Source: Clostridiales bacterium
Lineage (GTDB): Bacteria; Bacillota; Clostridia; Peptostreptococcales; Anaerovoracaceae
DNA length: 32,044 nt
Reading direction: 5' to 3'
NCBI GenBank assembly: GCA_012513435.1
Contig: JAAZCE010000015.1
Span: 1 to 32,044 of the forward strand
Each line of letters starts with the position of its first letter. Within the stretch, counting starts at the first letter, position 1. The translations under genes were made by a program, and so were the position numbers. This document shows positions 6,526-32,044 of this stretch, one piece after another. The notes below the pieces were generated by a model. The model was not told the origin of the DNA. It saw only the letters and a program-made list of their open reading frames with translations, and made no database searches.

Positions 6526-6550
6526 GCCGGAATATAAAAAGGACTAAAAG

Positions 6551-6574
6551 CCGGGCTTTGCCCGGTTTTATTTT
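6551..6574. terminator. Bidirectional Rho-independent terminator between the desulfhydrase operon and recN
   Basis: The stem CCGGGC/GCCCGG (6551-6556 with 6560-6565) has a TTT loop, a plus-strand TTTTATTTT tract, and on the minus strand a shorter CTTTTAG tract. It overlaps the recN stop codon (6568-6570), so one hairpin ends both convergent operons. Confidence 0.85.
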
Positions 6575-8187
6575 GAAGCGTCTATAAGCTCGTGGGCTGA
6601 TTTAAGGATGGTTTCTGTAATGTTTGTACCGCCTAGAAGTCTTGCGATTTCCTGCACCTTCTCATCTTCGATGAGGGGTTCTACAGTTGTATAGGTCATA
6701 GCATTGTCAGAGTTCTTGGCGATTCGGTAGTTGTGCTGCCCGAAGGCTGCAATCTGGGGAAGGTGAGTAATGCAGATAATCTGATGGTTTTTCGCTATTT
6801 CCTTGAGCTTGCCGCCGACGATGCTGGCGGCTATACCGCTGATTCCGCTGTCGATTTCGTCGAATATCATAGTAGGTATTTCGTCGTAATCCCCGATGAT
6901 TTTTTTGAAGGCCAGCATTATTCTGGACATTTCGCCTCCCGAAGCTATTTTGCTGAGAGGCTTGAGAGGCTCGCCCTTGTTGGTGCGTATGAGAAATTCC
7001 ACAGTATCGGTTCCTGTGCTTGAAAAAGCATGATTTTTCTTGAAATCTATGGAGAACTCGGCATCGGCAAAATTCAGCTGAGCCAGCTCATAGGTAATCT
7101 TTTCTTCAAGGCTTTTTGCTGAAGTCTTTCTTATTTCGGAGAGCCTTTCGCATGCGATGGAAAGGGCAGTCTCACACTTTCTAAGTTGGTCTTCCATATC
7201 TTCTCTTACGTTATCCGCGTTTTTTATATTGGAAAGTTTATCTTCCAGCTCCTGTCTGTATTCAATAAGCTCATCTATGGTCTTGCCATGCTTCATCTTC
7301 AGCTTGTTTAGAACTTCACTTCTGGCAATAGCGGCATCCAAGGCAGCTGGTGAAAACACGGCCTTGTCCATAGAATCTCTTATGGAACGGCATGAGTCCT
7401 CAAATTCATAATAGAGTTCGTCTATCCTTGAACTTAGTTCATCCAGGTCGTTGGAATATGAAGAAATTTCGGAAATCAAATCGGAAACCTTTTTGAAAGC
7501 GGAAAGAATTGAATAGTCGCTTTCGCTGGAAATTTGATAAGCCCCCGCTAGGTTTTCGTAAATTTTTTCACTGTTTTGCAGGAGTGCTATCTCATTTTCC
7601 AGTTCATCGTCTTCTCTTATTTGCAAGCCTGCATCTATAAGTTCTTGAAGCTCGTAAGCCATGAAATCCTTTTCCCTTTGGTCCTTGGTAGCCTGTTCCG
7701 AAAGTTCTTTTAGCTGAGCATTCAAAGATGTGTAGTTGTCAAAGAGAAGGGCGACTGCATCCTTTGCAGGCCCTGTTTTTTCCTTTTGGTAGAGGTCCAC
7801 AAGCCTGATGTGATAATCGGCATTGAGAAGGGACTGATGGTCATACTGACCGTGGATATCGGCCAGCTTCTTGCAAAGCATACTCAGATGTCCTAGCGTG
7901 ACGATTTCATCGTTTATCTTACAGACGTTTTTGCCGGACTGAGAGACTTCTCTAGTAATTATGTACTCATGCCCATTGTAGTCGGCTATCATCTGGACGG
8001 TGGCTTTTTCTGCTCCGGAACGAACAAAAGCAGTATCTGCCCGGCTGCCGAGAGCCAGGCTTACTGCTTCGATTACTATTGATTTACCGGCGCCTGTTTC
8101 GCCAGTAACTATATTCAAGCCATCGTAGAAATCGATGTCGACCTCTCTGATGATGGCAAAATTACGAATGCTTATATGTCTAATCAT
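6568..8187 (-). CDS. recN: DNA repair protein RecN
   Basis: A 539-residue SMC-like ATPase, slightly short for RecN. Walker A GETGAGKS is at 29-36, a long central coiled-coil arm follows, and the C-terminal ATPase half has the ABC signature ASGGEMSRIMLAFK, Walker B TMIFDEIDSGISG and the switch ITHLPQIAAF. RecN binds DNA ends early in double-strand break repair. It lies 11 bases after argR, the usual argR-recN order of Firmicutes, and probably relies on the argR promoter. No in-frame disruption seen. Confidence 0.95.
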   Translation of the reverse strand: MIRHISIRNFAIIREVDIDFYDGLNIVTGETGAGKSIVIEAVSLALGSRADTAFVRSGAEKATVQMIADYNGHEYIITREVSQSGKNVCKINDEIVTLGHLSMLCKKLADIHGQYDHQSLLNADYHIRLVDLYQKEKTGPAKDAVALLFDNYTSLNAQLKELSEQATKDQREKDFMAYELQELIDAGLQIREDDELENEIALLQNSEKIYENLAGAYQISSESDYSILSAFKKVSDLISEISSYSNDLDELSSRIDELYYEFEDSCRSIRDSMDKAVFSPAALDAAIARSEVLNKLKMKHGKTIDELIEYRQELEDKLSNIKNADNVREDMEDQLRKCETALSIACERLSEIRKTSAKSLEEKITYELAQLNFADAEFSIDFKKNHAFSSTGTDTVEFLIRTNKGEPLKPLSKIASGGEMSRIMLAFKKIIGDYDEIPTMIFDEIDSGISGIAASIVGGKLKEIAKNHQIICITHLPQIAAFGQHNYRIAKNSDNAMTYTTVEPLIEDEKVQEIARLLGGTNITETILKSAHELIDASK

Positions 8188-22031: not shown

Positions 22032-22241
22032 GTGGATATAAACATATCTGACAAATGGGTAAGCATCGAATATGCCGCAGAATATCTTGATATAAGCCAA
22101 GATACGATTAGAAATTGGATAAAAAAAGAAAATGGAATTCCCGCGCACAAAATAGGAAAACTGTGGAAATTTAAATTATCTGAACTTGATGAATGGGTAA
22201 AAAGCGGGAAAAGTGCTTATTCAGAAGGAGAAATTAAATGA
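22032..22241 (+). CDS. Small helix-turn-helix protein, excisionase/MerR-like fold
   Basis: A 69-residue protein. The core VSIEYAAEYLDISQDTIRNW followed by IKKENGIPAHKIGKLWKFK is the winged HTH of the excisionase-family DNA-binding domain. It starts at GTG 22032 with GGAGG seven bases upstream; the overlapping ATG at 22030 stops after three codons. It ends in an ATGA overlap with the first methyltransferase. It could be the operon's transcription controller, like the C proteins of restriction-modification systems, or an excision factor of the element. A related protein is encoded at 28915-29115 before the ATPase gene, which favours a control role linked to this cassette. Confidence 0.8.
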   Translation: MDINISDKWVSIEYAAEYLDISQDTIRNWIKKENGIPAHKIGKLWKFKLSELDEWVKSGKSAYSEGEIK

Positions 22242-23275
22242 GATTTATAGGTTGTAAAACACTTTTGTTAGATAAAATTAAAGAGGTCATAGATGAGAAT
22301 GCCCCGGAAGCAAAGACATTCTGTGATATTTTTTCGGGAACATCAGTTGTTTCAAGATATTTTAAGCAGTGGTATGAAATCACTTCAAATGACATTTTGT
22401 ATTTTTCATTTGTTTTGCAAAGGGCAACAGTTGAAAATGATACTTTGCCTTCATTTTCTGGATTAGATCAGCTTGGAATTGATGACCCTGTGCAATATTT
22501 TAATGAAATGAAGCCAGCAGAAATGGAAACATTAGAGCAGGAAAAACGTTTTTTTCAGAACACATATGCCCCAACTGGTGGCAGAATGTACATCAATGAT
22601 GAAAATGCGTTAAGAATAGATTATGCAAGAAACACTGTTGAGGATTGGCATAACTCATCGCTAATAACAGATGATGAATATTTTTATTTAGTGGCTTGTA
22701 TCGTTGAGGGGATACCTTTTGTTTCAAATATTTCTGGTACTTATGGGGCATTTCACAAACAATGGGAGAAACGCTCATATAAAAAATTTGAATTATTTAG
22801 ACTTGATGTGTTGACAAATAATAAAAATAATAAATGCTACAACGAGGATGGAGTTGAACTGCTGAAACGTTTAGAAGGAGATGTTTTGTATATTGACCCT
22901 CCCTATAATGGACGTCAGTATTTGCCCAACTATCATGTTTTAGAAACAGCGGCGAAATATGATTTTCCAGAAGTTAGGGGTGTTACTGCGCAAAGACCTT
23001 ATGAGAATAACAAGTCTGATTTTTGCTTAAAAGGAAAAGTAATCGAGGCCTTTTCAAATTTAATTGAGAATGCCCAATATGGACATATCATTTTGAGCTA
23101 TAGTACAGATGGACTTATGTCCGTTGAAGATATTGAGGCTGTAATGAAAAAATACGGCATTGCAGATACTTTCAGAATCTATGAGATTCCATATAGAAGG
23201 TATAAAAGCAGAACACAGGGAAAGAAAGATGAATTAAAGGAGCTACTTGTATATGTGCGCAAAAATAAAAAGTGA
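22238..23275 (+). CDS. Adenine-specific DNA methyltransferase, D12 (Dam-like) class, copy 1
   Basis: A 345-residue N6-adenine methyltransferase. A motif X-like start is present (RFIGCKTLLLDKI), the SAM-binding motif I is FCDIFSGTSVVSRYF (28-42) and the catalytic motif IV is DPPYNGRQY (220-228). The order X-I-(target region)-IV is that of D12/alpha-class enzymes. YSTDGLM and the basic YKSRTQGKKDELKE come towards the end. It would transfer methyl from SAM to adenine N6 in a specific sequence. Overlaps the HTH gene by four bases and the next methyltransferase by 23. AT-rich codon use contrasts with the core genes, a sign of transfer. Confidence 0.88.
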   Translation: MRFIGCKTLLLDKIKEVIDENAPEAKTFCDIFSGTSVVSRYFKQWYEITSNDILYFSFVLQRATVENDTLPSFSGLDQLGIDDPVQYFNEMKPAEMETLEQEKRFFQNTYAPTGGRMYINDENALRIDYARNTVEDWHNSSLITDDEYFYLVACIVEGIPFVSNISGTYGAFHKQWEKRSYKKFELFRLDVLTNNKNNKCYNEDGVELLKRLEGDVLYIDPPYNGRQYLPNYHVLETAAKYDFPEVRGVTAQRPYENNKSDFCLKGKVIEAFSNLIENAQYGHIILSYSTDGLMSVEDIEAVMKKYGIADTFRIYEIPYRRYKSRTQGKKDELKELLVYVRKNKK

Positions 23276-24167
23276 TAAATATATAAAAAGTCCTTTGAAT
23301 TACACAGGAGGAAAGTATAAGATTCTTGCTCCAATTTACGAAATCTTACCGGAGCGTGTTGGTACTTTTGTTGATTTATTTGCAGGTGGATTTAATGTCG
23401 GAATAAATGCTAATGCATCAAATATTATTTGCAATGACCAGATTAATTATATTATTGATTTGTATCAGTATTTCCAATCGCAATCAACAGAAAAAGTGAT
23501 ACAGGAAATTAGCAGAAGAATAGATGAATTTGAATTATCACAACAAAATGCAGATGGCTACAATAAACTGAGAAGTCGATATAATAAAGAAAAAGATATA
23601 ATGGATTTTTTTGTGTTAATATGTTTTGCATTTAATCATCAGATTCGATTTAACAATAGCCATCAGTTTAATACTCCATTTGGAAAAGAACGCAGTAGCT
23701 ATAATAGAAATATAGAGAATAACTTGATCCTATTTTGCGATGCTATACATTCAAAAAATATTAACTTTTTGAATACTGATTTTCTGTCTGTAGATTTGTC
23801 TGCTTTGGGAGAAAATGACCTTGTTTACTGTGACCCTCCATACTTGATTTCTACTGGGTCATACAATGACGGAAAACGTGGATTTAAAGACTGGACAGAG
23901 AAAGAAGAACATCAACTGCTCGACCTTTTGGATCGACTCAATGCTCACGGAGTTATGTTTGCTTTGTCTAATGTGTTTTATCATAAAGGTATGTCAAATG
24001 AGATTCTAATAGAATGGAGCAAAAATTATATAGTTAATTATATTGACAAGTCATATTCGAATTGTAGCTACCATTTTAAGGATAGAAATGCAAAGACGGT
24101 AGAAGTTCTAATTACAAATTTTGAAAGGAGGGAGCCGGATTGTCAACAACTAAGTCTGCAGCTATAA
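23253..24167 (+). CDS. Adenine-specific DNA methyltransferase, D12 (Dam-like) class, copy 2
   Basis: A 304-residue protein with the classic Dam layout: motif X KSPLNYTGGKYKI (12-24), motif I TFVDLFAGGFNVG (38-50), FNTPFG in the middle, and motif IV VYCDPPYLISTGSYND (191-206). ATG 23253 is preferred over the TTG six bases earlier because of its distance from GGAG (23239-23242). Sequence is only distantly related to copy 1, so it is not a recent duplication. Two D12 enzymes side by side are what type IIS systems with asymmetric targets use, one per strand. It overlaps both neighbours, so the group is translationally coupled. Confidence 0.88.
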   Translation: MCAKIKSDKYIKSPLNYTGGKYKILAPIYEILPERVGTFVDLFAGGFNVGINANASNIICNDQINYIIDLYQYFQSQSTEKVIQEISRRIDEFELSQQNADGYNKLRSRYNKEKDIMDFFVLICFAFNHQIRFNNSHQFNTPFGKERSSYNRNIENNLILFCDAIHSKNINFLNTDFLSVDLSALGENDLVYCDPPYLISTGSYNDGKRGFKDWTEKEEHQLLDLLDRLNAHGVMFALSNVFYHKGMSNEILIEWSKNYIVNYIDKSYSNCSYHFKDRNAKTVEVLITNFERREPDCQQLSLQL

Positions 24168-25150
24168 CTTTATACGAAGAGTCAGAAAGATTCAGTGATG
24201 CTTATCCGGAGTATGACCTTTCAAAATTGCCACAGTGGGTTAGAGATAATATTCAAGAGGCAAGGGTTTATGGAAATCAGAAAAAAGGTGTTATATTAGC
24301 TGACGGGCGCAAATATCATCTTGATAATAAATTAAATGATATGACCGGGAGAGATTGGACTTTTTTTATAAACTCAGTTTTTTCTACACATTATCCAACA
24401 AGAGGAACCGAAGGATATGCACATGAGATTAGAAAGATACACCCATCTCCTAAACCACCACAATTAATGAGAGACTTGATTTCTTTCTTTACTAAGGAAG
24501 GAGAACTTGTATTTGATTCCTTTGCTGGTGTTGGCGGAAGTTTATTGGGTGCTGCTCTTTGCAACAGAAAAGCCGCCGGAATAGATTTGAACCAAGAATA
24601 ATTAAATGCATATATTGAAGCATCAAAAAAATTGGATTTACAAGTATATCCTACTATTTGTGGAGATTGCATTCAAATACTCCAAAATGATGCAGTTATG
24701 AACGAATTAATAGGAAAACAACAGATTGGACTTTGTCTCATTGACCCACCGTATGCGAATATGATGAGCAAAAAGAAAACGGGAGCAGATGCTTATATCC
24801 ATGGTGATGTTGCTACACCGTTTACCAACGAAGCTGCTGATCTTGGAAATATGGAGCGTTCAGAATTTCTTGAAACATTAAAAAAATCAGTAGAATTAAT
24901 GCTTGCGTATATGAAGACAGAAGGATATGTGGTTGTTTTTATCAAAGATTTGCAGCCACACAAAAAAGAAACAAATCTTCTTCATTCGGAAGTGGTCAAC
25001 AAGCTAAATGAAATTCCAAAATTGTATTACAAAGGAATGAAGATTTGGGCAGATGAATCTGCAAAAATCTATCCATATGGTTATCCATTTAGTTTTGTTG
25101 CAAATCAGGTTCATCAATACATTCTTGTATTTAGAAAAGAGAAGCGCTAA
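24140..25150 (+). pseudogene. Third DNA methyltransferase, interrupted by one in-frame stop codon
   Basis: TTG 24140 follows AAAGGAGGG at 24124-24132 and begins a frame that stops at TAA 24599-24601 after 153 codons, then continues uninterrupted to 25150. The first half has motif X (HPSPKPPQLM, 101-110) and motif I (VFDSFAGVGGSLLGAAL, 124-140); the second half has motif IV (LIDPPYANMM). The break falls in NQE-stop-LNAYIEASKK, directly after motif I, and one base change would restore a sense codon such as tyrosine. The second half has no ribosome binding site for reinitiation. It would be a 336-residue adenine or amino-methyltransferase. Either a true inactivation, a sequencing error, or stop readthrough. 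Confidence 0.82.
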
Positions 25151-25205: not shown

Positions 25206-26603
25206 TTAGCTATATGTAACACCCGTGCCAGCAAATGCCGTTCTTATACATTGTGGTGCATTAGAATTGATTATAATCCGACCATTGTCAGCAAGATAGA
25301 AAAGAACTTTTTTATGTGGTATGCGTGTGCAATTTCCACCAAAAATGCTAACACACCTCATAATTTGAACGTTGCCATATGCTGGATAAATGTATTCTTG
25401 TTCTATGCTGTCATAGTTTTCGATTTCTTCAACTCCCAATTGCAAAGTGGAAAGCATTTTTCCTTCAACTAAAAGAATGAAGTTGGTCTGCTCATCGTAA
25501 AGAACAACATCTGGAAGGTAAAGATTATTGATACCGCTACTATCCTTTTTTGGAAGCGTAATTAACTGTCCACGTTTAGTACGGAAATATCCACGTTCAC
25601 AGCCTGCGTGATTTTCGTAAACACAATACATTCCATGATACATAGTTTGTAAGTGAAGTAAAATGTCTGCCATTTTCTCTGAACGCTGTTCATAATGCCA
25701 ATAGAGTTCAGGCATTGCAACCTGTGGTGGCATATTGATTCCGTCTAATTTCATTCCAAGAATATTGCATATGTACAAGAACTTGTTTTTTCCATGAGTA
25801 CGATTAACATATTGCTGAGTAACACCGTGCATGGTTACCACAATATCCTTCGTCCAACCGAGTTTTCTTATACAAGCAGAGATCATTGAAAGGGCGCCTA
25901 TATTAGGGTCATGTCCTATATTTCCTGCGGTAGCAGGCTTAGCTAATCGCCCAGACACTTCAATTCGATTATCAAATTTCTTTATTGTGATAGGGACATT
26001 TCCGGCTGGAGGCATTCTCATCGCTGCTTTAAATTGAATGAGTTCATCAAGATTTCTAAAGGGTTTAAACCAACGGCTGGTATCTTTTCCAACAACGGTT
26101 ACGCCTAATGTCAGCAAGATATTTGTACCAAAAACGCTTGTGTCTGATGGTTTCTTTTCTTCTCTCGCCTCAAGTTCCTCATTATAAAGCATATACAGGC
26201 GAACATTGTTGTAATAAGGTGTTATATATACAAACTTAGAGCCTCTTTGGTATACTCCGGTATTACGAGATTCATCATCGCTTGTTTTAGTTTCTTCAAT
26301 AGCCATAATGAGGTTATCTGCTGAATTCCCTTCGACGGGTGCATTAGGCTGCTTGAAAAGTAAAAAGTCAAGAAAGCTGGAATTACCACTAACTGTTTTG
26401 ATAAAAATGTTTTGTGCTTTTCCAACACGTAAATTTTCTACTACGTAGATGAACTGAAAAAAACCATTCTCAATAATTGGCTTTATCTTAATTTCTCCGA
26501 GCATTGAAACAGAATCTGAAAAGTCAGCAGAATACATATTCACAATCTGTAATACAACAGACGGCTTGGGTCTTTCTTCGGTTAATAACCATAAATTGTC
26601 CAT
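25206..26603 (-). CDS. Probable type II restriction endonuclease with two PD-(D/E)XK-like motifs
   Basis: A 465-residue protein, large for an orthodox type II enzyme. Near residues 96-106 it reads D-NLIMAI-EETK followed by TSDDESRNTGVYQR, a metal-nuclease-like D...ExK block with a downstream Gln. At 364-382 it reads PDVVLYDEQTNFILLVEGK, a textbook PD-(D/E)XK core (P364-D365...E380-x-K382). The region between is unrecognised and may bind DNA. It is the last gene of the minus operon, 19 bases after the ATPase gene, with an AGGAGG site. Position facing three methyltransferases supports a restriction role. The exact REBASE family is not recognised. Confidence 0.72.
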   Translation of the reverse strand: MDNLWLLTEERPKPSVVLQIVNMYSADFSDSVSMLGEIKIKPIIENGFFQFIYVVENLRVGKAQNIFIKTVSGNSSFLDFLLFKQPNAPVEGNSADNLIMAIEETKTSDDESRNTGVYQRGSKFVYITPYYNNVRLYMLYNEELEAREEKKPSDTSVFGTNILLTLGVTVVGKDTSRWFKPFRNLDELIQFKAAMRMPPAGNVPITIKKFDNRIEVSGRLAKPATAGNIGHDPNIGALSMISACIRKLGWTKDIVVTMHGVTQQYVNRTHGKNKFLYICNILGMKLDGINMPPQVAMPELYWHYEQRSEKMADILLHLQTMYHGMYCVYENHAGCERGYFRTKRGQLITLPKKDSSGINNLYLPDVVLYDEQTNFILLVEGKMLSTLQLGVEEIENYDSIEQEYIYPAYGNVQIMRCVSIFGGNCTRIPHKKVLFYLADNGRIIINSNAPQCIRTAFAGTGVTYS

Positions 26604-26622: not shown

Positions 26623-28893
26623 TTATAGTGATGTTTCTATCATCATCTGATAATGTTGTTCTTGCTCCATGGCAGTAAAGATACATTTGAAGGTTTCTTT
26701 AATCCTGTCGGCATCTTCCGAACCCTCCACATAATTGAGTCCGTCATTAAAGCCTTGCGTGTCAGATCCTATGTAATGCAGCATTGCGGTAACGGAGAGG
26801 AGCAAATCTCGGTTCTCGCTGCCATCTGCATTATAGCGAATAAATACATCTTCTCGTTTCAAAATGCGCTCTGACAGGCTTTGACCTTCATAACCGCTAA
26901 TCTGTATAAAGTAGTATTCCAGTATCTGTCTGACGATTCTCATCAGTGCGGAAGATGATGTAACCTCATTGTATTCTCTCCAAAGCGCAGCATACGAGTT
27001 TTGCACAGGTGTGTAATTATGCTCGTATGCAGGTTCTTTGGAAAATGGGTCTTTCTTAGTGCAGAGAGTAATTGTGGATACATTATTCGATTTTTTTATC
27101 AAGTAGAAATTCACACAGTGATAGTATTTCAATCTGTCATAAGATACTTCCTTATGGAAGAAAGCATTATGCGTTAGTATGAAAATCTGTTTGATAAACT
27201 TTGGTGCATCAGCTTTTGCTGCAGAACCATTATTAAAACATATGGATATCAATTCACGGACGATGGAACTTACGATAAATAGTGAGCTGCTGTCCATGCT
27301 GGACACAGGGTCATCAATTACTATAATTCTATCCCGGAAAGTGCTGTCAGCGCTTTCTCTGCCAAGTACCTTATGGTAGAAGTATAAGAAGGCAATAAAG
27401 TTTCGCTCACCTTCACTCAAGCCGTGTGCCGGAGAACCATCATCACGAATGATTTCATATTTGTTAGGGTCATCAGCTTTTTTCTGTACCTTAAATCCTT
27501 GAAAACCAGAATCAGCCAATTTTTTATTGATGCTATTCATAGTAGAATCAATGTTTACTATTTTGCTGGAAAGTTTTGTGATTTCTTCCTTCAGAGCATT
27601 TCCATCATCAATGAGTTTCTTCATTGCTATTTTAAGTTGCTGTAATTCAGCATTTACAACTTTTAGGCTGTTCTGATAACTTGATATATCATCACGGACT
27701 AAGAATGCCATATGCTTCCAAATGGCAGTTTTACATTCTTCCTGTTTTGCCTGTCGAGATGAAATGATAATGTTGTTCTCATCAATAGCTGCATTAAGGG
27801 TATCTATGATTACATTGATTTCCTGTAACTTATCGTCAATACTTTCAATAACAATCGATGTAGTAGGAGCTGCAATCTTGTCAGCCAATTTACTTTTATT
27901 TAATTCCACTATTGCAATTGCGGTATCCAGTCGCCCATTATACTCTGTGAAGTCATTTCGGGGGAACTGATTGTTTGCATTCTCCTGCAAAGTGCTAATT
28001 ACTGTATTTGCTGCGGATTCATACAAGCTTTTGAAGGACTGCAATGTCTGGCGGTCAGCTTCGTATTGCGCATCAAAACATGATGCAATCTGCTGTTCGT
28101 AGTCAGTTGGAAGTTTCTGATTGCAATACGGACATTTATCCCCGGCGGTATGACTGAAGTTTTCGTGTCCTTGCCTAATCCAGTCGGTTGCACCAATAGC
28201 ACGAATAAAATCTGCAAATGGTGTATCTGCACTACTTGTAATGGCTTTAGCAAGAAGGTCGAATCCTGCGATTTTTTCTATTGCAATAGGATTTACAGGA
28301 TTTAGTTTTGGATAAATAGTGGTGTCAGAGCCAAATGCTGTAGCATATAAGGCAGTCAATTCAGTAACATCACATTCCTTTGGAGCAGCAATGGACAATA
28401 ATTCATCAACAAATACGGATTTACTTCCACGTTTATTCTTCATCGTGTCTGGAAAATCAGAACGAAAAGTTGCTGTGGCTTTCCAACAGGCATCATCAAG
28501 GGCGGAGCGGAGTGCAGCAGGACGTTTAGACTTATCATCACTTTCTGATTTCTTATCCTTATATTGTGTACCGAGGTCATTGAGTAGCACCTCTTTAGCA
28601 TCAATTTCTTTCTGCTTTTCGATATTGCCTTCGCTCACGCTAAATACACCGGGCATTCCGGCATCTTCACGGATATTACGGCTGATAAAATCTCTGTCAT
28701 AAACAAGCACATCATAATCAGACAGCGCAGGTGTTACGCCTGAACCGTCCGTAATTTGTTGTGCAATAGTAGATTTACCTACTCCATTTTTACCGAAGAA
28801 AAAGTTGATGAGTGTAGGTGTTATTGTAATATTGTGATAAGTACGACCATCAAGTTTAATAGACTTGATGGCAGCTTGCATTTTATTATCCAT
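26623..28893 (-). CDS. RloC/PrrC-like ABC ATPase with zinc hook, candidate anticodon nuclease (AAA_13 family)
   Basis: A 756-residue ABC-type ATPase. Walker A FFGKNGVGKST is at 33-42, a zinc-hook-like CPYCNQKLP at 254-262 is flanked by helical regions, the coiled coil runs about 330-460, the signature HGLSEGERNF is at 490-499, Walker B IIVIDDPVSSMDSSS at 523-537 and the H-loop LTHN at 573-576. Domain order matches RloC and PrrC, which sense phage attack on restriction and cut tRNA. The C-terminus has R655-x3-E659 and a later H706, like the Arg/Glu/His set of the PrrC nuclease, although the E-to-H distance (47) is longer than in PrrC. Nuclease activity is therefore a hypothesis. 21 bases after the HTH gene; GGAGGA is 11 bases upstream of the start. 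Confidence 0.8.
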   Translation of the reverse strand: MDNKMQAAIKSIKLDGRTYHNITITPTLINFFFGKNGVGKSTIAQQITDGSGVTPALSDYDVLVYDRDFISRNIREDAGMPGVFSVSEGNIEKQKEIDAKEVLLNDLGTQYKDKKSESDDKSKRPAALRSALDDACWKATATFRSDFPDTMKNKRGSKSVFVDELLSIAAPKECDVTELTALYATAFGSDTTIYPKLNPVNPIAIEKIAGFDLLAKAITSSADTPFADFIRAIGATDWIRQGHENFSHTAGDKCPYCNQKLPTDYEQQIASCFDAQYEADRQTLQSFKSLYESAANTVISTLQENANNQFPRNDFTEYNGRLDTAIAIVELNKSKLADKIAAPTTSIVIESIDDKLQEINVIIDTLNAAIDENNIIISSRQAKQEECKTAIWKHMAFLVRDDISSYQNSLKVVNAELQQLKIAMKKLIDDGNALKEEITKLSSKIVNIDSTMNSINKKLADSGFQGFKVQKKADDPNKYEIIRDDGSPAHGLSEGERNFIAFLYFYHKVLGRESADSTFRDRIIVIDDPVSSMDSSSLFIVSSIVRELISICFNNGSAAKADAPKFIKQIFILTHNAFFHKEVSYDRLKYYHCVNFYLIKKSNNVSTITLCTKKDPFSKEPAYEHNYTPVQNSYAALWREYNEVTSSSALMRIVRQILEYYFIQISGYEGQSLSERILKREDVFIRYNADGSENRDLLLSVTAMLHYIGSDTQGFNDGLNYVEGSEDADRIKETFKCIFTAMEQEQHYQMMIETSL

Positions 28894-28914: not shown

Positions 28915-29115
28915 TTATTCTGTAATTTTTCCGCCCCTAACATAATCGTCTATTTCGGAAATTTTAAATTTATAGCGTTTTCCCGCTTTGTAAAATGGAA
29001 TTTTTTCGTCCTTTATCCAAGCACGGATTGTGTCTTTGCTAACACTGAGATAATCCGCAACATCTTCTAAGTTGACCCATTTTTCAATTGGTGTGTTTCC
29101 TTCTTCAATGTTCAT
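28915..29115 (-). CDS. Small helix-turn-helix protein, excisionase/MerR-like fold (second copy)
   Basis: A 66-residue protein whose core WVNLEDVADYLSVSKDTIRA followed by WIKDEKIPFYKAGKRYKFKISEIDDYV parallels the protein at 22032-22241 (WVSIEYAAEYLDISQDTIRN, IKKENGIPAHKIGKLWKFKLSELDEWV). It is between the 210-residue protein and the ATPase, in the same orientation, with gaps of 15 and 21 bases. The pair suggests that each operon of the cassette carries its own copy of a related regulator. It could repress the ATPase-nuclease operon. Confidence 0.82.
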   Translation of the reverse strand: MNIEEGNTPIEKWVNLEDVADYLSVSKDTIRAWIKDEKIPFYKAGKRYKFKISEIDDYVRGGKITE

Positions 29116-29130
29116 AGATTAATCCTCTCT

Positions 29131-29763
29131 TCAAATCTGGAATCCTAATTCTTGTAATTCGGCTATTAAATCTATTTTCTTTATGCTCCAATGCATACGG
29201 TTGAATTCGTTAAAAGACGAATCGCCGCTTATATCTAAATCGAAAAGAGCCTCGTTTAACCGTTGCTGTGGAAGAAGGTACATGATATGTGGATATATCT
29301 TAATACCATCCCGACGAATTTTAATCTGTCGAATATATCCGTATCCCAATGTCTGTTCTTCATCAGTGTGACCATAGGCTGCGTTTTCGTTTGCGAAGAT
29401 GCAGGGAAATGTTTTTATTTTTTCTATGACATCAGGAGATAGGGTAGCATATTCAGCTTTTATGTCATCGTCCGTATTTTCGGTCAATGCCCGTTTAGCA
29501 TCAACTGTAAAAGGAGTGCTCTGAGAGAAGTCTGCCCCATAAGTAACGAATAGATTATAATGTGTTCTATTTATCGTCATAGCCGTTGGCTGTGGCTTCT
29601 GTGTTAATAGTTGTGGCACAATACTTCCCTGAACGGTAACATTCATTGTATCTACATGGGCAGCATATACATTTTTCTCCCCAGTCTGCTGTACGGAACT
29701 AACAGGAGTCCCGGAGGCAATGCCTAATGCAGAAGGAGTTGATGATTGTAATTCATTTGACAT
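29131..29763 (-). CDS. Uncharacterised protein with an N-terminal GEKNV motif (210 aa)
   Basis: I do not recognise a named family. Residues 1-27 are a Ser/Thr-rich flexible leader. Residues 28-42 are GEKNVYAAHVDTMNV, nearly repeated at the C-terminus of the protein encoded just upstream. The rest (about 65-210) looks like one globular alpha/beta domain: HYNLFVTYGADF, RALTENTDDDIKAEY, then IKTFPCIFANENAAYGHTDE, YIRQIKIRRDGIKIYPHI, and an end FNRMHWSIKKIDLIAELQELG. No membrane helix and no catalytic motif I can name. It starts 12 bases after the previous stop with AAGGGGGA. It resembles hypothetical proteins I associate with gut Firmicutes mobile elements, from memory and unverified. Confidence 0.75.
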   Translation of the reverse strand: MSNELQSSTPSALGIASGTPVSSVQQTGEKNVYAAHVDTMNVTVQGSIVPQLLTQKPQPTAMTINRTHYNLFVTYGADFSQSTPFTVDAKRALTENTDDDIKAEYATLSPDVIEKIKTFPCIFANENAAYGHTDEEQTLGYGYIRQIKIRRDGIKIYPHIMYLLPQQRLNEALFDLDISGDSSFNEFNRMHWSIKKIDLIAELQELGFQI

Positions 29764-29775
29764 ACAAATCCCCCT

Positions 29776-30630
29776 TTATAAATTCAAGGTATCGAGATGA
29801 TCGATGTGAACATTTTTTTCGCCTTTCTGATTAACAATGGTGGCGTGTTCTATATATTGTGTATATGCTTTTGAATATTCCTGTGTGGTGGAATCTGAGT
29901 CAATAACTTCGACTTGTGGTTCATCATCGGTAGGGGTGCCTTCAAAACTATCTGCATCATGTAGTATGTCAAGAGGGACTGACTCGATTTTCAGTTCTCT
30001 TATTATCCCGTTACCAACAGTTCCACGATAATTTCCTTTGCTTGGATACCATTGTTTGTAAGTATCTGCACCTTTTTCGTTGTCATCTGCACGATTCATA
30101 ATAATGTAATGCCAGACTCCGAGCAGAAAGGATTCAATATAAAAATGGTCAATGCTTGATATGTCTTTCGCTTTTGTTGCAGCCGAATCTGGCGTTATGA
30201 AAAACTCATCATTTGCTAGAATAGCGTCATCGCTTTCTATCATGTCAAGTAGGCAGCGCACAAGCTGAAGCCATAAGGCAGGGTCAAGAAATTCCTGAAC
30301 AAATTCTGCCGTCATACGAAGAGCCTTGGAATGTCTATCTTTTATATCCTCGTCCAATGCTCTGTGCAAATCATTATCAGAAAATTGTCCGTAAGCCACA
30401 AGCGAATCCGTGCAGCTTTTATATTTGCTGGTATAAGGCTTAAGACTTGTACCACCGAAAAAATCGGATAGTTGATATATTGAAATAAGCCTCCTGAACG
30501 TTTCTTGTTCAGAGAGGCTTTCTTTTTGTCCGTTTGTATGCTCTGCGGAGGACGTCAGTTCTTTTCTCGCCCGTAATATCTGGGTAAGAAATGTGCCGCC
30601 ACAAAGATATGGAGTTTTTTCTTTTGCCAT
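29776..30630 (-). CDS. Uncharacterised protein with a C-terminal GEKNV motif (284 aa)
   Basis: Start chosen at ATG 30630 (MAKEKTPYLCGGTFLTQILR); an upstream extension to 30744 adds an implausible hydrophobic leader and covers the ATTAAC repeats. The domain contains SDFFGGTSLKPYTSKYKSC (a short serine/lysine-rich loop), a helical middle with FVQEFLDPALWLQLVRCLLD, and FLLGVWHYIIMNRADDN. The acidic linker near 225-260 leads to the last 15 residues GEKNVHIDHLDTLNL at the very end (270-284). First gene of the five-gene minus operon. No known enzymatic motif. It pairs with the next protein by the shared motif, so the two probably act together. Confidence 0.75.
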   Translation of the reverse strand: MAKEKTPYLCGGTFLTQILRARKELTSSAEHTNGQKESLSEQETFRRLISIYQLSDFFGGTSLKPYTSKYKSCTDSLVAYGQFSDNDLHRALDEDIKDRHSKALRMTAEFVQEFLDPALWLQLVRCLLDMIESDDAILANDEFFITPDSAATKAKDISSIDHFYIESFLLGVWHYIIMNRADDNEKGADTYKQWYPSKGNYRGTVGNGIIRELKIESVPLDILHDADSFEGTPTDDEPQVEVIDSDSTTQEYSKAYTQYIEHATIVNQKGEKNVHIDHLDTLNL

Positions 30631-31707: not shown

Positions 31708-31731
31708 AAATAAAAATAGGAGGTTCTTTTG

Positions 31732-32044
31732 ATGAAAGAATTAATACCGAAAGACGAATACGGCATCTTTGCCGATACTCATGACACAGCGAGGGTGGAC
31801 AGCCTGTTTGTAGCTGGCTTCTTTGAGAAAAGACATGACCATGTTCTCAGAGATATTGTAAAAATCACTGACCCCAAATCTGGGTTGAGTGAGGAGTTTG
31901 TAAAAAGCAACTTTATGGCTGATAAATATCAAGATTCTACAGGACGAAAGCTGCCCAGCTACCAAATGACTCGTGACGGATTCACGATGCTTGTTATGGG
32001 ATACACCGGGCAGAAGGCTATGAAGTTCAAGGAACTGTACATCA
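31732..32044 (+). CDS. Rha family regulatory protein, 3' truncated by window
   Basis: Open from ATG 31732 (AGGAGG seven bases upstream) to the window edge, 104 residues seen. It includes FEKRHDHVLRDIVKITDPKS, the characteristic Rha/antirepressor N-domain motif, then MADKYQDSTGRKLPSYQMTR and DGFTMLVMGYTGQKAMKFKE. Rha proteins are phage- and element-encoded regulators with a KilA-N/ANT-like organisation; they influence lysogeny decisions. With the sigma-like gene upstream it marks the element backbone. The C-terminal part lies outside, so variants with an added antirepressor domain cannot be excluded. Confidence 0.8.
   Translation, partial: MKELIPKDEYGIFADTHDTARVDSLFVAGFFEKRHDHVLRDIVKITDPKSGLSEEFVKSNFMADKYQDSTGRKLPSYQMTRDGFTMLVMGYTGQKAMKFKELYI

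Follow-up and report, generated by a model that had tools for sequence, protein, structure and literature searches.

The systems closest to the locus analysed here are the bacterial amyloid signalling sequences (BASS), whose original paper is reportedly that of Dyrka in 2020. As described in the available portions of three sources, BASS belong to NLR/effector pairs (PMC7889193, PMC8086366, PMC12261475) encoded by adjacent or overlapping genes, in which a near-identical short motif stands at the C-terminus of one protein and at the N-terminus of the next and varies between systems. Short homotypic tags are likewise carried by RHIM and fungal PP proteins (RIPK1-RIPK3, HELLP), and homotypic beta stacking is described for BASS, PP and RHIM motifs in excerpts of the literature (PMC7889193, PMC7885112, PMC8086366). 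Do NLR-independent signalling amyloids exist in fungi and bacteria? This question is posed in the accessible text of a 2021 review (PMC7889193). Restriction-associated ATPases form a second point of comparison. RloC combines an ABC ATPase and a CxxC zinc hook with an Arg-Glu-His triad, according to the part of its description at hand (PMC2610378), and in the passages available it is rarely linked to restriction genes (PMC2610378, PMC3874168). PrrC, described in excerpts of the same two papers (PMC2610378, PMC3874168), offers a precedent for a restriction-linked trigger, this defence ATPase being genetically tied to EcoprrI, the restriction system that it possibly backs up.

The locus lies in a 32,044-nucleotide stretch from a Clostridiales bacterium (assembly GCA_012513435.1, contig JAAZCE010000015.1), hereafter the window. 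Two adjacent minus-strand genes encode protein A, of 284 residues (29776..30630, with the ATG at 30630 and the stop at 29776-29778), and protein B, of 210 residues (29131..29763), which we propose to be an effector and its receptor or trigger, respectively. Protein A consists of an N-terminal LCGGTF domain (residues ~1-230), an acidic linker and a C-terminal motif; in B the motif is N-terminal and is followed by a domain of ~150 residues. The original prediction had noted that the C-terminal end of A (GEKNVHIDHLDTLNL) and residues 28-42 of B (GEKNVYAAHVDTMNV) are identical at 9 of 15 residues and that 12 bases separate the two genes, and the sequence bears out the identity, the gap and the position of the motif in B. 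In local alignment the match covers the last 19 residues of A (VNQKGEKNVHIDHLDTLNL, 29779..29835, minus strand) and residues 24-42 of B (VQQTGEKNVYAAHVDTMNV, 29638..29694, minus strand) with a BLOSUM62 score of 62, while shuffled versions of B aligned to A gave a mean of 33.1 and reached at least 62 in 4 of 10,000 shuffles. Over the DNA of the 15-residue motif 29 of 45 bases are equal, third positions are unequal in 9 of 15 codons, and the nine identical residues use the same codon in five cases and another codon in four. With five of nine codons the same, the further claim that the similarity is kept at the protein level is a fair but modest one from the window pair, and the comparison across loci described below settles the point. 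A DNA repeat or recent duplication was rejected as the source of the match given the 29 of 45 equal bases in the window and because across loci the motif changes jointly in both genes.

The pair was said to head an operon with a RloC-like ATPase and a nuclease. Both are present, the nuclease being a Type II restriction enzyme, and a small helix-turn-helix gene had been omitted. This gene C (28915..29115, minus strand) sits between B and the ATPase and encodes a 66-residue protein of the HTH_17/excisionase type (Pfam HTH_17 3e-14) that is probably regulatory. The RloC-like gene D (26623..28893, minus strand) encodes an AAA_13 ABC ATPase with a CxxC zinc hook (AAA_13 2.9e-110; PDC-S06 1.5e-196), and the Type II restriction endonuclease E (25206..26603, minus strand; PADLOC REase_II PDLC03445 4.4e-61) ends the operon. 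On the opposite, plus strand are a D12-class adenine methyltransferase (22238..23275; Pfam MethyltransfD12 2.2e-39), a second enzyme of this class from the Dam family (23247..24167; Pfam 1.5e-34, TIGR00571 5.1e-45) and the C-terminal part of a Type II methyltransferase (24632..25150; PADLOC PDLC03391 1.3e-56, positions 210-380 of 381). At 24140-25150 two consecutive plus-strand reading frames, of 153 and 172 residues, resemble two halves of one Type II methyltransferase, with the profile match on the second half, and the gene there may be interrupted.

At the thresholds applied, searches of Pfam, NCBIfam, PADLOC and PHROGs assigned no family to A or B of the window. Across 56 relatives of A and 43 of B, each Pfam family was matched by at most one A or two B members, and no NTPase family appeared among the Pfam matches of the B proteins. 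No known fold or active site was recognised in any A or B. Pfam Ses_B was matched by one of the 43 B proteins at E=0.03, which is the chance level over 43 scans. In profile searches of the PDB a match to aciniform spidroin (0.0018) was put down to composition; another search gave a single match at 0.057, and no usable structure relative was obtained. Six of the 56 A proteins reach a Kyte-Doolittle value (KD) of 1.6 over 19 residues, and no clear transmembrane helix was seen. A three-component ABC-3C system was rejected because no CTD or MC component family, names that we take to be those of the ABC-3C Pfam families, occurred among the matches listed up to E=1 for these A and B proteins.

Relatives were sought in genomes, viral contigs, phages and plasmids, which gave 144 loci before the survey. 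Loci were counted with HMMs of A and B, and reading frames with identical last 200 residues were merged. This yielded 102 distinct A reading frames, with the window counted once, and B was present in the same locus for 78 of them. One of the 78 encodes A and B as a single protein (L119), leaving 77 separate pairs; L082 was left out as fragmentary, so the pair set comprised 76, the window's among them. By their record titles the loci are mostly from Bacillota (Lachnospiraceae, other Clostridia, Syntrophomonas, Enterococcus), and a few are labelled Prevotella, Bacteroidales, Actinomycetaceae or Desulfobulbaceae. Further carriers are viral contigs, phage records such as Javan105 of Streptococcus constellatus, and a Lactococcus plasmid. 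Both genes are rare: of 297 genomes of the order, 7 have B and 5 have A, and within the phylum B was found in 5 of 398 genomes and A, at E <1e-80, also in 5 of 398, the window's genome being counted each time. Weak partial A matches occurred in eight more of the phylum genomes.

Each pair was scored tail to head with a fixed 80-residue B head and a pass threshold of at least 40. The A tail and B head matched at this level in 72 of 76 pairs, while random N-termini, a background that includes B proteins of other loci, reached it in 1.05% of draws. The four pairs below the threshold scored 38 (L023), 37 (L106), 39 (L081) and 21 (L028), the last having an A gene broken into two reading frames. The motif sequence differs widely between loci and matches inside each locus, as in the A/B pairs NGDGNVVMPNYGTITI / DGNENVMVPNYGTVNI (L016), AEKIYYIDHVDN / AEKLYNIKHVEN (L132), TATITQFNNATIETIN / NAEIQQFNNPQINTMN (L139) and QTNIGHSVSKTYNIKDSTV / QTNIGNQVIKTYNIQDSNV (L006). 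When representatives were limited to 60% identity or less in the A core (n=32), the mean was 55.9 for own pairs versus 29.5 for mismatched pairs; none of 20,000 permutations attained the observed mean, and the true partner ranked first for 16 and among the top three for 28 of the 32. At 45% (n=17) the means were 54.4 and 27.2, and the true partner ranked first for 13. When the A core was compared with the B core there was no pairing signal (29.7 matched, 29.0 mismatched). Between-locus distances of A tails and B heads correlated at 0.79-0.80, and a partial Mantel test on fixed segments, with all pairs except L028 entering before clustering and both cores removed, gave r=0.60 (n=47), a value that none of 2,000 permutations reached, the highest being 0.136. 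The same test on 40 residues from within the A core, run as a control, gave -0.05. The check suggested in the original prediction, recurrence of the motif at fixed positions in neighbouring genes, thus found it at the same two ends and covarying within pairs. The outcome named there as refuting, homologs without the motif or without co-occurrence, is the opposite of what we observed, and the motif was found on separate NACHT partners as well.

Two loci added observations on gene arrangement. In L018 a 149-residue gene, Nudix-like by eye, lies between A and B at 6540-6989, and the motifs are still matched. On the Lactococcus plasmid (L164), which was outside the tested set, A and B are present and ANNIYNIEHVENLN / ADRIYNIEQANNVN were matched by eye; no D-like or restriction gene is annotated beside the pair, and the small gene after B is not C-like.

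Protein A was also found joined to NACHT proteins. It is fused to a NACHT NTPase in 10 proteins (10/10 tested), nine of which also carry Pfam SNaCT14. In six loci A is free-standing with the tail VNNYGTVQNQKFISIETMNGDI or a near copy, and the product of the next gene matches it at its N-terminus (scores 45-52); two of the six, L076 and L123, are near-identical. This partner was a NACHT protein with SNaCT14 in 3/3 tested loci (L076, L068 and L114), and the B HMM found no B match in the loci with a separate NACHT partner. A third gene also carries a matching motif in L114, L076 and L123 (scores 54-61). Its product in L114 is a DUF6650 protein, to which the L076 and L123 counterparts are 64-65% identical; DUF6650 is among the domains newly implicated in phage defence in the available part of a recent paper (PMC13092281). 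In L119, where A and B form one protein of 601 residues, the motif is absent, and in 16 of 18 fusion proteins no segment resembles the motif more closely than does the best of 20 shuffles of the same protein. The two exceptions are the B-TIR fusions L003 (41 vs 40) and L017 (42 vs 39), which exceed their shuffles by 1 and 3 points. Among the positive controls, six of seven motif-bearing proteins beat their own shuffles and L020 tied (39 vs 39). These comparisons show motif linkage interchanging with fusion, and the motif would appear to replace a covalent link.

The downstream genes offered a way of comparing the two kinds of locus. The helicase after A-B-HTH in L042 (PADLOC C3a139) and those after A-NACHT in L068, L076, L114 and L123 share 70.5-73.7% identity across at least 1077 residues, and a C homolog is present in the latter four loci and in two loci with an A-NACHT fusion, L055 and L126. 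B and NACHT thus alternate as the partner of A in one gene slot. In the window operon no NACHT protein was found among the ORFs examined, and B stands in its place. The B domain was also found fused to TIR domains (L003, L013 and L017, Pfam-tested). The C-terminal domain of B there lies N-terminal to the TIR, in L013 and L017 (CAP12/Pycsar type) and in L003, and by eye also in L005, E. coli plasmids being included; the B domain is possibly a sensor module for TIR effectors.

The motif segments are enriched in N (3.2x), Q (2.8x) and G (1.6x) and poor in charged residues, a composition described for amyloid signalling motifs in the accessible portion of one paper (PMC7885112), and in A the motif comes after the acidic linker. 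Facing near-copies of this composition, with such a linker in A, would suit homotypic beta stacking. A QIG-like core of the RHIM or PP kind occurs in a minority: the (I/V)Q(I/V)G core is strict in 2 of 76 pairs and present in relaxed form on both sides in 16, whereas most A-B motifs are of other sequence types. Among the 76 pair loci, only two third proteins with the motif were found above the score threshold. One is a Ser/Thr kinase in L069 (7844-8992; Pkinase 3.1e-36) with the N-terminal sequence QEAEKIYNIEHAD, which matches the neighbouring A and B and gives a further likeness to the RHIM and PP systems; a tagged Ser/Thr kinase is reminiscent of the RHIM-bearing RIP kinases. The other, in L020, has the motif followed by a helical domain X, and A carries X as a fusion in L040 and as an insertion in L034.

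Taken as a whole, the explanation that we consider probable is that the motif acts as a BASS/RHIM-like homotypic connector between A as effector and B as receptor, in a restriction-linked module triggered when restriction fails or is blocked. The original prediction of a partner-docking or beta-stacking motif that connects a sensor to an effector gains support from the matched pairs, from their covariation and from the separate NACHT partners that elsewhere are fused to A. Architecture points to A as the effector side, since its motif is C-terminal or, in the NACHT proteins, A is the N-terminal domain, and to B as the receptor side, since its motif is N-terminal and B is interchangeable with NACHT. 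B would sense a trigger itself or pass on one that D or the restriction enzyme supplies, and would then expose or cluster its N-terminal motif. The B motif could seed cross-beta stacking of its matching counterpart at the C-terminus of A, which would gather the A domains and switch A on as an effector, and active A would stop the growth of the infected cell. Restriction that has failed, or has been blocked by a phage, is the likely trigger because the module, composed of A, B and in most cases the HTH regulator and the zinc-hook ATPase D, stands before many kinds of restriction-modification genes and because of the PrrC precedent. More tentatively, and with rather less confidence than we would need to prefer it, we propose a phage-carried, non-NLR prion-like signalosome, a plug-in guard common to many restriction systems in which a self-templating beta motif would couple B to A and the same tag would recruit further proteins including the Ser/Thr kinase, as RHIMs recruit RIP kinases.

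If A and B were instead held in a permanent complex by constitutive, non-amyloid docking, with short strands pairing by beta augmentation and neither templating nor a switch, then matched motifs, covariation and replacement by fusion would fit equally well. We regard this as unlikely, though it deserves to be taken seriously. The motif sequences are near-copies, which goes beyond mere complementarity, and three products of one locus can be tagged (A, NACHT and the third gene in L114, L076 and L123; A, B and the kinase in L069; A, B and X in L020). Together with the N/Q/G-rich composition, these features make homotypic stacking the simpler account. A toxin-antitoxin pair, with A as the toxin and the motif as the site at which B docks to inhibit it, appears improbable. 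The layout of two genes, with A first and B small and adjoining, is what such a system would show, but the other partner of A, NACHT, is a switch NTPase to which A is fused where N-terminal effectors sit, the B domain is fused to TIR domains, and no B match was found in the loci with a separate NACHT partner. There is only a slim chance that both motifs bind a common third operon protein, D or C, without mutual contact. A C homolog is found downstream of B in 69 of 77 pairs and a D homolog in 65 of 77 (window included), yet matched motifs persist where no D was found (L042, L035, L033 and L139) and where no C was found (L141, L127 and L090); C is less firmly excluded than D, since a C homolog is also present in separate A-NACHT loci. 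Chance, which the shuffles of the window pair alone did reach, and a common globular fold element are contradicted by the permutation and covariation tests and by the position of the motif outside both conserved domains, and can be set aside with near certainty.

Returning to the restriction-linked connector that we favour, we surveyed the genes downstream of the module by scanning 20 of 58 listed ORFs, from 19 loci, against PADLOC. Restriction, methyltransferase or defence-helicase matches were obtained in 16 of the 19 loci and include Types I, II, IIG and III, SNF2-helicase systems and HmaA. No PADLOC match was obtained for the ORFs scanned in L141 and L039, and in L033 only a small gene was scanned against PADLOC; the helicases of L033 and L042 share 90% identity. 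The E family (PDLC03445) also follows D in L015 and L034. A-NACHT fusions stand before a BrxC gene (BREX) in L126 and before an NgoFVII-type enzyme in L070, and a DruA-containing gene follows the A-B fusion in L119.

Protein D resembles RloC in its ABC ATPase and zinc hook. The CxxC hook is present in 60/60 full-length D proteins, and the Walker A, signature and Walker B columns are conserved in the 60. Measured against the RloC triad Arg-X3-Glu-X36-52-His, Arg is found in 55/60 and Glu in 47/60, but unlike RloC the D family has no single conserved column for the catalytic His, which is found at one column in 33/60 and at another in 2/60, the window being one of these two. An assignment of D as an anticodon nuclease was not adopted, the triad being only partly kept. 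D also differs from RloC in setting, RloC being rarely linked to restriction genes in the accessible literature (PMC2610378, PMC3874168), whereas D often precedes them. The D gene is broken into two reading frames in L101, L054 and L067, where A and B are single reading frames. The A-B module resembles the PrrC-EcoprrI guard in that a defence ATPase is genetically tied to a restriction system that it possibly backs up, but here several restriction classes are involved besides type Ic, and an A-B-HTH module is added.

Paired motifs in NLR systems are already known, and A-B is a variant with a non-NLR partner. Gene order, facing motifs and variation between systems are as in BASS, by analogy with which the A-B motif may be amyloid. 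The BASS protein with the N-terminal motif is an NLR receptor (NACHT/NB-ARC), whereas B of the window is not an NLR, and an NLR partner was found in L076, L114 and L068. These sibling loci resemble the bNACHT defence proteins, A being the N-terminal domain of, or motif-linked to, NACHT-SNaCT14 proteins. The commonest BASS effector is a Bell-type helical membrane-targeting domain, whereas A has no recognised Bell domain and no clear transmembrane helix. CHAT or TIR effectors also occur in BASS, and the Bell domain is no strict criterion. A-B is found with restriction genes, phages and prophages, mostly in Bacillota, whereas the available text of a review places BASS mainly in filamentous actinobacteria and cyanobacteria. 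In the CC-licensed literature, among the matches listed and as far as the text of these extends, we found no description of a non-NLR partner, a restriction setting, phage carriage or the A effector family.

A single effector family thus pairs, through one type of motif, with NLRs in some loci and with the non-NLR protein B in most. Since NLR and non-NLR partners occur, in some cases before the same downstream genes, the question of NLR independence raised in the review becomes directly testable. The many natural matched pairs provide a ready set for finding the specificity determinants of such motifs. The distribution suggests a common backup module for restriction systems, on phages as well as on chromosomes.

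Distant A domains of the LCFGTF type were seen in L154, L163 and L155-L161, in other STAND-like proteins (P-loop GTGGLGKS in L154, GAGGLGKS in L163) and in several proteins of ~416-487 residues, and A seems to belong to a wider superfamily. The first part of a gene for a phage Rha regulator (Pfam Phage_pRha 5.1e-28) occupies 31729-32043 at the right end of the window. Chromosomal housekeeping proteins (MgsA, LytB-S1, SbcD/SbcC, RuvB and QueA) are among those scanned from 1.2 to 21.8 kb. The restriction island borders a mobile-looking segment.
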